In this document: positions 53,901 through 63,800 of the stretch, in pieces | Position numbering within the stretch: the first letter of the stretch is position 1 | Layout of the letters: each line of letters opens with the position of its first letter | Assembly: GCF_040054535.1 (NCBI RefSeq) | Contig: NC_090796.1 | Coordinates: 4,077,501 to 4,141,500 of the forward strand | DNA length: 64,000 nucleotides | Source of the DNA: Antennarius striatus | Lineage: Eukaryota > Chordata > Actinopteri > Lophiiformes > Antennariidae | Direction: 5' to 3' | Made by a program: the position numbers and the translations under genes | Notes under the pieces: model-generated | What the model was told of the DNA's origin: nothing | Database searches by the model: none | The model's input: the letters and a program-made list of their open reading frames with translations, nothing else

Positions 53901-56900
53901 TCACCTCAAAGGATTTGTCCTGAAGCTGGACGAAGCACAGGAAGGAGAAGGCGGAAGAGGAGGAGGAGAGGGACAGAAAGATGGGGCACAGCAGAGAATG
54001 CAGGCAGAAATCCCAACTAGACAAGTAAATGATTAAATGAACATTGCCTGCTGTTTGAGAACCGATTAAAAATCACTTCACAGACCTGCTTCCAATTTAC
54101 TTCACAGGAAGGTCAGGGGTCACATTGGTATAATTCCAAAGAGTTTATTAAGGAAGAATTTAGTTCAAGTTTACTTTGTGTTAAACACATCAAGTCAGGT
54201 GCTAAACATTCACTCTAGCTTCCTAAATGTGTTGGAGATGAATTTGCATAGGTGAAAGAAAAATTAACTTTCTCTTCATACTGTATATCACGCTTTTCAT
54301 ACACAGACAGACAATAATAATTTTCTCTTTTTTGGTTGCTTTAAAAGTCCTTTTCTGACAAAACAAACCCCGGCTCATTCTCAGTTAGTGAAAACATATG
54401 TTTGACATCTTCTTGGCTCTGGAGTGAGACGTCTTCAGGTTTATCTGGGTTTAGATTCCAATTTGACAATTTGAAGGTGAATACTGCAAATGCCCCCCCC
54501 TCCAGTTGTCAAACATGAAGCATTATTCAAGGTATGACTGGACAAATGGTATGGCTTTTTGCTTTTGCTTTCTCTTCAAAAGCTCATTTTGGAAGAGAAG
54601 AACATTGCAAATGATCATCTGGTCTTGTGTGACGCCACTCAGCGAACTACATGTCTAGTCCTGCACGATATTCCAACATCAACTCGGTTGTCAGTTTGGA
54701 AAAGAACGGTATTAAAAAAGACATAATTCACTACAAGTCTGGCCATGTTAAAAGTTGCAGCTAAGTGGAAGGAGTGTTAGTCAGATATGAGCTTAAGTTG
54801 AGCTGAAGTGGAATTCAGAGAATGGAAGTCAAACAATGACTTGTCTCTAACCATTAATCTCTAAAAACACTATTTTGTGAAATAAAGTGTTGTGTCAATC
54901 GACTGAAATGAATTACAGTCACAAATGACTGCTTTACAGTTACGATTTAGAACAATCCAAGCTTTAACTGGTTTGTCCTCTGTGATGAGTCGACACACTG
55001 AGCCATGAGAATTGACAATGGACTTCATGCATTCTTATGACGTTTACGTAACAGCATCTTGGGCTATTGCTAGTGTCATCTTAAAGGCTTAATGTGAACA
55101 TTCTTAATATTTTATTCAGCCTCACAGTTTAGCCTGTTAGCATACTGACCATTACAATGAATCATGCACTGAAGCTCATGCCAGTTCAAGATAAAAAAAA
55201 ATAGCTGCTGCCCTATTTTCCTAAACAAAAACTTTTTTTTGGAGTAGAAACCAAAACTACAAACTTCCAGTTCCACATAAACAATATGTCAGTTCAATGC
55301 TTAATTCAAATATAACCTTGTGAATGGGAAATGTTTTTTCCTTAGCATTCAGTCACTCCTCTAAATCAGTACTGTGTGGTGACCCTCTTCCATCATTAGC
55401 CAAAAATGTATCAAAGCACCATCAGCTTCTGTTCTACTCACAGACAACAGCTAACAGGTTCCCGTACATTCAGTCACTTGTAACAGTGCATATACTAGCT
55501 GTTTTAATGCTAATTTTATCCAACAAGAGAAGGACAAAGCCAACAATCAGTTAACAAGAGGAAAACAGTCCTTCTACTGACAATCCCATTCGCCCTGCAG
55601 ATAAACACACAGAGATGACGTGTGTTTTGAGAGTTTATAAAGCATCGTATCGCCTAACAAAGTACTGTAATCAGGGGGCATTAAAAATAAAACCCTCAAG
55701 GTTTAAAATCTGATCTGTCACAAAACTCCCAAGGGCTGCATAAAAACCTAGTTAAGATAAGAATTGTTGAATTTAAACTTACAAATTAAATGATGCAGTT
55801 TCCATGACTTTGCAGGAAAGTTTTGTCTGCCGCAATTACACACATGCATTATACCTTACCAATAAAGCAATAAAGCCTTTTAAAGCTAATGCTGTACTCT
55901 GTGCATCATGACTTATCCATACTTGCACAACAAAATCTCAAATGCACTATTTTATCAGGTTATGATCAATCACAAACAAACTGAAAAACAAAGTCTAAAC
56001 AGAGCAGGCACCCTATAATTGTAATGTTTCTGCATGTTTGGTTTGTGACTCATTCTCTCTTAACTGACCTATACCAAGCAGTGCAGCAGCAAGCTCCCAT
56101 AGCTTTCAGACACAAACACACAGGGTGGGGTTAGTGCAGTGTGTGTGTAGGTCCAAGCAGTGTGCTCTAAAATGGCACACTGTTGGCTGAGCTCTTCACT
56201 TGTAATGATTCACACCAAGATGCTTCATTCAAGCAGCCTGAAGCATACTTCAAACACAAACCACTGAACTGGTCAGCCTCATTTGTTATTCGAGCGTTAA
56301 TATGACACACACACACACACACACACACACACACACACACACACACACACACACACACACACACACACACACACACACACACACACACACACACACACAC
56401 ACACACACACAAAAACAAGCCCACAGCACCATCTAGTGAAGAAGCTCCTCAATAGCATGTGGCAGCAGCTTCAAAACAGCCATCGCTTTCGGTTAGTCAC
56501 AAAACAAATAAAGTAAAGCTTGATCCTCCTCAATATCACAGCCATCCCACACCAGGTGGGGGTTCAAATACCTCAACATCATCTGCGTCTCTCCCCTCTT
56601 CAGACTCGTCCATTTCCTACAAAAACAAGAACGCAGAAAGTTAACAACCTAAGGATCAGAATAGACTACGCAGAGATGCAGAGCAGACGAAAACCAGCAT
56701 CGAGTGACGACCAGCAGAACCGTTCAATAACACAAGTCCGAGTCTGACACAGTAGTCTATTCAACAATGATAGTAAATGTCAAGACTGGCACAAGTTGAC
56801 AAACGGCACAAATGTCTTTATAGATATCGGGGACACTCAATCAGTTCTACCCCCAAAGGTGGGGGTACAAAAGTCTGAAAAAAATTATCATAATCAGTGG

Positions 56901-58521
56901 ATATGCTGGTACATTAAAATTATTTTTGTTTCATGCACTTTGAGAGAAGAAAGCAGCAGACAGGAACAGATCACAGGCAGGAAGCAAACTGTCAACATAA
57001 CAGCCATGCAATGTGAGATGCAACTCCTCATCCATCAAGTTGCTTGAAGCTAGAAATCTCAATTCTGATATCATTTGTTTCCTCAAGGTTAAAGCTGACA
57101 GTCACTGTAATGTAAATCAATAAAACAGCACTGTAGACATTCTTCATTTATGTGACATTTATAAGTATCATATGTATTGTATATTGTTGACACGCTGTCC
57201 GCAATGATTGATGTAATAGTTTGTACATGCACTTTGTATTGGATTTCATATCTTGTGGGATGTGTCTGATGTACTTGCTTTATATTCTTAAATTTATAGC
57301 TATAAAAAAAGTAAAAACAAATAGTAAACTAAAAATGTTCTGAATTTTGTAGGGGACAGTCAAAGGCAGCTGCTAAAACACTATTTTCAATAAACTGTTG
57401 AGATGTATAAAAAAAGATGACATACTTAAATGTGAAAGGCAATCTGCAAATACAACTGTTTTGTATGGAATCACACAATCTACAAATTATTAATATTAAG
57501 GGTTCAATAAAGTTGTTGTCTGCGAATTTAGCATTGTGTAGTTGTCCTTTTTCTACAGTAGGTGTTTAATTTAACTAAGTAATAGAAATTAGATAATAAT
57601 ATATTCTAATTGGATGAATGAATGTATACTGGATTGCTTTAACTGATATTGTGACAAATCAACAGCTCATTGTTGAAAAAAAGAATTTAATACAGAACAG
57701 GACAGTCCTGGTGACACGTAACAGGAGATCAGCTATCAACAATGTCAAAACAAACTGACTTACAAATTTACAGCTAAAGTTCAGTGAAGAGGATCAGGTC
57801 CAGTCAGCAAAACATTTCCAACACTTAATAAGTGTTTCAAAGGTACGAAAGTGTGTGAAAACCAACTGAGAAGTCAGTAGAGATGAAACCTAGAGGACAT
57901 CCTGTTCCTCACGAAAGAAAAACGTGCTTTCAACCCTATATGCAGATACTAACCGAGTTGCTCTCTCTGCTGTCTTCATCTTCTGACACCTTGTCATTTG
58001 GACCTTCAGTTCGGTTCAGGTCATCGTCTCCATAACTGTACACCAGACCTCCATGGTCCCCTAGTGACAGACAGGGAGAGACAGGGACACAGAAAACACC
58101 ACACGGATGTCAAATAACTACACGATGACAAACAACATGATCAGCAAACACAAACATCAGCAGCAAAGCTTCACGGTTACGAGAACACTAACACACATTC
58201 AACTGAAACAAAACAACACATACGCTTTTAGCCTAGACACTGTTTGATATTTAGAAGTACTGAAACCAGAAGATTTCCGTGTTTCACCGTATTAATAAGG
58301 TGAAAATGGTGAAAAACCGTTGATCTGAAATAACTAAATGTCTTCATGTGTTAGCTAGCTTTAGCTTACAGCCCGCCTAGTAAGTCCGCGGTATACGTCC
58401 AGGATAATTCAGTCTTCTTTGTGTTACCTGTCTCGTCTATGTCGGGCTCAGAGTCAGGCTCTGAATCGTCTCCATAGTCAGCCAAAGACGAGAGAAGAAC
58501 ACTCTTTTTAGCGCCAGACAT
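47942..58521 (-). CDS. sap30bp: SAP30-binding protein (HCNGP-like), complete gene
   Basis: Ten coding exons: 58428-58521, 57954-58060, 56572-56616, 53384-53423, 50439-50527, 49387-49478, 49192-49304, 49064-49122, 48389-48479 and 47942-48123. They sum to 912 bases, 303 residues, close to the roughly 308 of human SAP30BP. The N terminus is acidic (MSGAKKSVLLSSLADYGDD, then Asp/Glu/Ser-rich). The conserved HCNGP core follows (VRNMSPDEIRIPPDPPGRC, DKIQKLYERK, IYEKLIQFCGIDQLGTNYPK, MFDPHGWSEDSYYEAL). The end is a Thr-rich segment (QPTIITTTATLPAVVSVTT) and a Lys-rich tail. The family acts in the nucleus as a SAP30-linked transcriptional corepressor, with reported roles in pre-mRNA splicing. The gene lies directly upstream of itgb4 on the same strand. 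Its first three exons are part of an inverted duplication. Confidence 0.95.
51362..51432. repeat. two back-to-back perfect hairpins in sap30bp intron
   Basis: Hairpin 1 has CCATCTCCCTCCT (51362-51374) pairing perfectly with 51382-51394 across a 7-base loop. Hairpin 2 has GTGAATCACAGCTATA (51394-51409) pairing perfectly with 51417-51432 across a 7-base loop. They share one base. There are no mismatches in 29 total pairs. Confidence 0.95.
51838..52150 (+). mobile_element. LINE-type 3' end fragment in sap30bp intron
   Basis: Contains GTTAGATGGAGGCAATTGATTCG and GCTGTGGCGACCCCTGAAGG, ending AAAAGAAGAAGATAG. This is a familiar 3' terminus of a dispersed teleost non-LTR element. It is 5'-truncated and non-coding. 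Confidence 0.55.
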
Positions 58522-63718: not shown

Positions 63719-63800
63719 CCTGTCTGATTTTAAATTTTGAGGGTTTTGATTTTAATGCCACCTGTTTACTTTGTTAGTCAATACGACGCTTTATAATGTC

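Follow-up and report, generated by a model that had tools for sequence, protein, structure and literature searches.

A probable head-to-head inverted duplication of the complete sap30bp gene in the fish Antennarius striatus

Does a stretch of 64,000 bp in the genome of the fish Antennarius striatus (contig NC_090796.1, C21:4077501-4141500; hereafter the window) hold one gene for sap30bp and a mirrored piece of its 5' end, or two complete genes? To our knowledge SAP30BP is single-copy in human. The first-pass annotation, made from the letters of the window, described a head-to-head inverted duplication of the sap30bp 5' end, about 3 kb long. The genome comprises 548 Mb in 42 contigs, and flanking sequence was added to the window (55.5 kb on the right and 10 kb on the left), giving a joined stretch of 129.5 kb; positions called extended carry the window numbering past its ends. 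From these data we consider it quite likely that the complete gene has been duplicated head to head in inverted orientation, giving two intact divergent paralogs in mosaic arms with arm-to-arm conversion.

Two complete genes in collinear inverted arms

Comparison of the window with its own reverse strand (self-BLAST, figures from the best 60 of 809 minus-strand matches) recovered the inverted duplication, with 56415-58092 pairing with 61736-60073 at 91.6% over 1697 columns (E=0). Two further pairs are 56057-56273 with 62357-62148 (88%) and 58411-58595 on the minus strand with 59770-59586 (95%), the latter consisting of common promoter-proximal sequence, 5' untranslated region and exon 1. A softer search also paired 55838-55717 with 62359-62469 and 55713-55603 with 63723-63832, at 75-77%. 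The outlying matches on both sides of the dominant pair are collinear with it. Closest to the centre, the arms match over 23 bp (58599-58621 against 58910-58932), with a score reached in 0 of 500 letter shuffles. This pair encloses a centre of about 290 bp (58622-58909) with the structure (AC)n-ATATACTG-(TG)n, which is a small inverted repeat in its own right; since (TG)n at 58746-58888 makes up half of it, the GT-rich spacer of roughly 300 bases proposed earlier is borne out. When the flanking genome is included in the alignment, the left arm covers 47935-58621 (minus strand) and the right arm, collinear with it, runs on the plus strand from 58910 to the window end at 64000 and on to extended 76661. 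The duplication itself was thus correctly seen, but the figure of 3 kb is too low, as the right arm continues past the window end. Both arms end 7 bp beyond the stop codon of their own gene copy, at window 47935 and extended 76661. Additional homology past the stop codons was considered and rejected, as the 3' flanks align with each other no better than shuffled sequence does (59 of 200 shuffles equal or exceed the best score).

Each arm carries a complete sap30bp gene. Copy L (47942-58521, minus strand) has 10 exons, with a coding sequence (CDS) of 912 nt and a protein of 303 aa; exons 1-5 lie at 58521-58428, 58060-57954, 56616-56572, 53423-53384 and 50527-50439, and exons 6-10 at 49478-49387, 49304-49192, 49122-49064, 48479-48389 and 48123-47942. 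The in-window part of copy R (59660-64000, plus strand) contains exon 1 (59660-59753), exon 2 (60107-60213) and exon 3 (61532-61576), and exons 4-10 follow past the window end at extended 66154-76654 (C21:4143654-4154154). Copy R therefore has 10 exons too, with a CDS of 903 nt and a protein of 300 aa, and the earlier restriction of the duplication to the 5' end does not hold. The start codons, at 58521 (minus) and 59660 (plus), are 1.14 kb apart with the 5' ends facing. Exon ends in both models were set by eye, guided by splice sites and by homology to human SAP30BP. All 18 introns are bounded by GT...AG, and neither model has a stop or frameshift. When aligned, the two proteins show 19 residue differences and a single gap of three residues (9 nt, in frame), exon 9 being 9 nt shorter in copy R.

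Genome searches placed the gene nowhere else. With the human protein as query, 10 of the 15 reported matches fell in the two C21 arms, on opposite strands, and the other five had E>2.8; with the copy L protein, from which nine near-start residues had been removed, all 16 matches fell in the two arms. Neither query found a sap30bp locus besides these two below E=2.8 in the 548-Mb genome. The Pfam scan took eight proteins (among them the spliced gene models and two right-flank frames, but not the open reading frames (ORFs) at 2814 and 5282) and recognised HCNGP in copy L (E=3e-34, 117.9 bits) and in copy R (E=6.9e-33, 113.5 bits), against a cut-off of 26.3. The stretch ADAQKRKSKWDSAIPVT, which may be the C-terminal ULM that binds RBM17, is the same in both. 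Between the copies dS is 0.144 and dN 0.032, a dN/dS of 0.22; synonymous changes occupy 26 of 199 sites and nonsynonymous changes 22 of 701 (Fisher p=6e-7). By this measure the second copy appears to be a gene and not a relic.

Uneven identity and interruptions of the arms

Divergence between the arms is far from uniform. In an arm alignment of 9191 columns, a three-state hidden Markov model (HMM) lifted the log-likelihood from -2794 to -2409. The counts that follow omit 58332-58094 and 50292-49741, which have little or no homology (746 noncoding columns), although the latter stretch also includes about 210 columns that the segmentation placed in its two better-aligned states. Noncoding divergence is 511/7542 (6.8%) without the omitted stretches and 789/8288 with them. 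When the noncoding alignment is cut into 75 segments of 100 columns, 21 have two mismatches or fewer, against a mean of 2.3 and a maximum of 8 in 10,000 permutations, and 13 have 12 or more (mean 2.8, maximum 10); adjacent segments are correlated (r=0.56), a value reached in 0 of 10,000 permutations.

The segmentation delimits two high-identity tracts. Tract 1 (53507-54911, minus strand; partner extended 64808-66074) lies in the middle of intron 3, where 18 of 1266 columns differ, so that 1.27 kb at 98.6% identity is set in flanks of 84% (83/531 mismatched). A dispersed repeat was rejected as an explanation of tract 1, since the genome search reported matches in the two arms only and no third one. 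Tract 2 (56590-57113, minus strand; partner 61034-61558) spans part of intron 2 and exon 3 and differs in 6 of 524 columns; its noncoding part differs in 6/497, against 48/550 in its flanks. The pattern suggests that these near-identical tracts probably arose by arm-to-arm gene conversion. The segmentation also places clusters of replacement changes in exons 2, 3 and 5 as small islands amid near-identical sequence.

The arms are further separated by insertions and deletions, and every kind of difference listed in the first-pass annotation (substitutions, (CA)n, a minisatellite, two repeat inserts, an insert of about 1.2 kb and a deletion) is present. Beside the centre, between the innermost arm block and the promoter of copy R, lies a right-only insert of 653 bp (58933-59585, plus strand, from self-BLAST and sequence), which carries a dispersed repeat (59219-59542) with GAATT runs on its flanks. 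Other copies of this repeat occur in the window at 26877-27202 and 41782-42041, and the second of them adjoins a tRNA-like element of unassigned type found by ARAGORN (42038-42109). Intron 1 of copy R contains the minisatellite (59863-59991, plus strand; 16-bp unit, 8 copies). The stretch around it, about 59850-60067, has matches of 66-88% at dozens of further sites, some on C21 and some on other contigs, a lower bound as 40 of 265 candidates were scored, and it is therefore a widespread repeat and not private to this locus. An (AC)n run occupies 56305-56411 of the left arm, and at 61743-62147 (plus strand) an interspersed repeat occupies the right arm, which measures 405 bp there against 135 bp of mostly (AC)n on the left; this repeat has at least 39 other copies in the genome at 79-85% (39 among the 40 scored of 4084 candidates). 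Intron 3 of copy R holds a right-only insert of 1253 bp (62470-63722, plus strand, from the arm alignment), which we assign to no class, and the right arm is without 213 bp that the left arm has. Overall, 10 gaps separate the aligned blocks, six longer on the right (0.2-3.3 kb) and four longer on the left (0.13-0.54 kb). With so many indels and the 653-bp insert beside the centre, hairpin formation would be expected to be weakened.

Weighing the alternatives

Several observations weigh against conversion as the source of the mosaic. The permutation tests show that divergence is non-uniform and nothing more, and the p values of tract against flank are descriptive and post hoc, since the same data served to choose both tracts and flanks. 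Three exons differ more than their 100-bp flanks (exon 3, 3/45 against 4/200; exon 5, 5/89 against 4/199; exon 6, 11/92 against 18/176), while the remaining seven are more alike than their own flanks, exon 2 slightly so (5/107 against 7/133). Synonymous divergence (13.5% over 272 codons, exon 9 being omitted for its gap) exceeds both the 7.8% of the 100-bp flanks (p=0.014) and the 6.8% of the noncoding columns (p=0.0014). Plain conversion does not predict exons diverging beyond introns; intronic constraint could do so instead. Moreover, the stop of arm homology 7 bp past both stop codons has no explanation and would be an odd coincidence for a random breakpoint. Under one alternative, the whole-gene inverted duplication stands and its patchy identity comes from selective constraint on regulatory or splicing elements within introns, or from mutation that is uneven along the arms. 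Exons 3 and 5 do lie in well-conserved stretches and differ more than the surrounding introns, noncoding divergence is below synonymous divergence, and genes for splicing factors, of which SAP30BP is one, often carry conserved noncoding elements. However, the mid-intron block of tract 1 is long for a conserved element, and Rfam at gathering thresholds gave no non-coding RNA family match in the window and the further stretches, so we regard constraint in place of conversion as rather unlikely. The excess in exons could reflect either partial constraint on introns, or selection retaining exon differences despite conversion, or faster synonymous mutation.

The remaining alternatives concern the duplication itself. 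A reading of the right arm as a decayed 5' fragment or a pseudogene is suggested by the window, in which exons 1-3 alone are visible with differences that are mostly replacement changes, and by the 653-bp insert, which splits the promoter of copy R from more distal sequence. A fragment is refuted by exons 4-10 of copy R, which are open and have GT/AG borders, and the dN/dS is low for a pseudogene; the nonsynonymous deficit persists when all 22 nonsynonymous and half of the synonymous changes are assigned to R (p=0.037), indicating that copy R is constrained. We consider this explanation very unlikely. Nor is an assembly artefact at all probable, whether a chimera produced by fold-back or an alternative haplotype joined in reverse. 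Inverted repeats are a common assembly error, but a difference of 6.8% in alignable noncoding sequence together with several kb of inserts is too much for a fold-back read, the sequences beyond the outer arm ends are unlike each other, and the 129.5 kb of a single contig contain no N. The divergence of the arms and their distinct flanks thus agree with the earlier view that a simple fold-back is disfavoured. Finally, the palindrome itself could be selected, for instance for a DNA or RNA hairpin or for double-stranded RNA, and long inverted gene pairs in Caenorhabditis do appear actively maintained (PMC1803023). Here, in contrast, the symmetry is broken by the 653-bp insert near the centre, by microsatellites and by right-arm gaps of up to 3.3 kb, and the part that is intact is the coding sequence, which makes selection for the palindrome extremely doubtful.

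Protein differences, neighbouring loci and significance

Returning to two constrained genes with conversion between their arms, the replacement changes were polarised with human as outgroup, leaving out length gaps. Ten are R-derived, three L-derived and six could be assigned to neither (two-sided p=0.09, not significant). The copy R protein may be evolving faster, but with an outgroup as distant as human this is no more than suggestive. In the cryo-EM structure of human CDK11-cyclin L-SAP30BP, residues 98-184 encircle cyclin L, R110-D184 seals the ring, and K157, R160, N161 and K167 contact CDK11 (PMC13324802). In both fish copies R110, K157, R160, N161 and K167 (human numbering) are retained and D184 is E. 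Differences within the ring are R-derived at 121, 124, 136 and 137, L-derived at 122 and 148, and of either origin at 149. The exon 5 cluster, IPPDPPGRC in L and IPHEPSGRC in R against IPPEPPGRC in human, includes two R-derived proline losses and falls in the part of the protein wrapped around cyclin L. It is conceivable, although improbable, that selection keeps two SAP30BP proteins different while conversion homogenises the introns; if so, this fish would have in copy R an additional, modified cofactor of CDK11-cyclin L.

The left side has an ORF at 20840-21394 that shares its strand with copy L and matches integrin beta-4 (PDB chain 3f7p_C, E=3e-35), whereas the ORF 37778-38140, taken by eye as the integrin beta-4 start, has no match in Pfam or PDB. 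Four of the eight proteins scanned have no Pfam match, namely the two itgb4-like ORFs, the ORF at 45814 and one right-flank frame. To the right of copy R, a small membrane-protein ORF gives a sub-threshold match to the SMIM5/18/22 family (Pfam, 23.5 bits against a cut-off of 29.3). The human order is presumably SMIM5-RECQL5-SAP30BP-ITGB4, with RECQL5 and SAP30BP head to head. A search for recql5, as the possible earlier neighbour, gave its best match on contig C16; copy R would therefore occupy the position of human recql5. A PRY-SPRY reading frame lies in the window at 13134-13682 (plus strand; Pfam SPRY, E=6e-20), and by eye a similar frame lies upstream of recql5 (C16:9647727-9648302, minus strand). 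Retroelement-like open frames near C21 4190000-4197000 and near C16 9630000, seen by eye in ORF listings, contain closely similar stretches.

The duplication was probably made by a fold-back or template-switch event near the (CA)n/(TG)n tract. Fold-back at short inverted repeats close to a break is known to yield inverted duplications (PMC10622511); this was shown in yeast without Mre11 or Sae2 function, whereas here it is suggested by the (AC)n-(TG)n centre. About 0.6 kb past the end of copy R an interspersed repeat of about 0.9 kb begins (extended ~77265-78192, C21:4154765-4155692), from a family of dozens of copies that are mostly 69-81% alike, and it might be related to the outer breakpoint. 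The insert beside the centre and the other indels would have introduced the asymmetry that makes the palindrome tolerable, conversion between the arms would have homogenised patches, and both genes would be transcribed, each by its own promoter copy.

Structures of this kind are already known, and the sap30bp pair adds another case. Divergent paralog pairs in long inverted repeats occur in Caenorhabditis (F44E5.4/F44E5.5 and others) and resemble it in being head-to-head duplicates with a short spacer, arms that extend into the intergenic region and conversion proposed as the homogeniser; one pair likewise has an insert (153 nt) in its intergenic repeat, with arms at 81.6% (PMC1803023). The leading Caenorhabditis arms, however, are 95-100% identical, short and common to several species, whereas the sap30bp arms are a mosaic across an intron-rich gene of 10-17 kb, seen here in one species. 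Among vertebrate tandem gene pairs, 3-14% are convergent and likewise 3-14% divergent, the latter being, like the sap30bp pair, adjacent duplicates on opposite strands; asymmetric deletions have been proposed to stabilise the long inverted repeats of such duplicates (PMC2547482), while the larger asymmetries here are right-arm inserts. Mammalian Y palindromes are similarly reported to have gene-carrying inverted arms with exchange between them. The sap30bp palindrome is much smaller and more diverged than these. We found no report of a duplicated fish sap30bp in the literature, judging by titles and the starts of abstracts, with one query being loose.

Conversion between duplicates is a known route of duplicate-gene evolution, and here a core splicing and kinase cofactor is present as two intact, facing copies. 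The locus illustrates how asymmetric inserts and patchy conversion may allow a long inverted repeat to persist. If both copies are expressed, the pair would serve as a natural experiment on how duplicates avoid conversion and on whether a second SAP30BP alters CDK11-cyclin L function.

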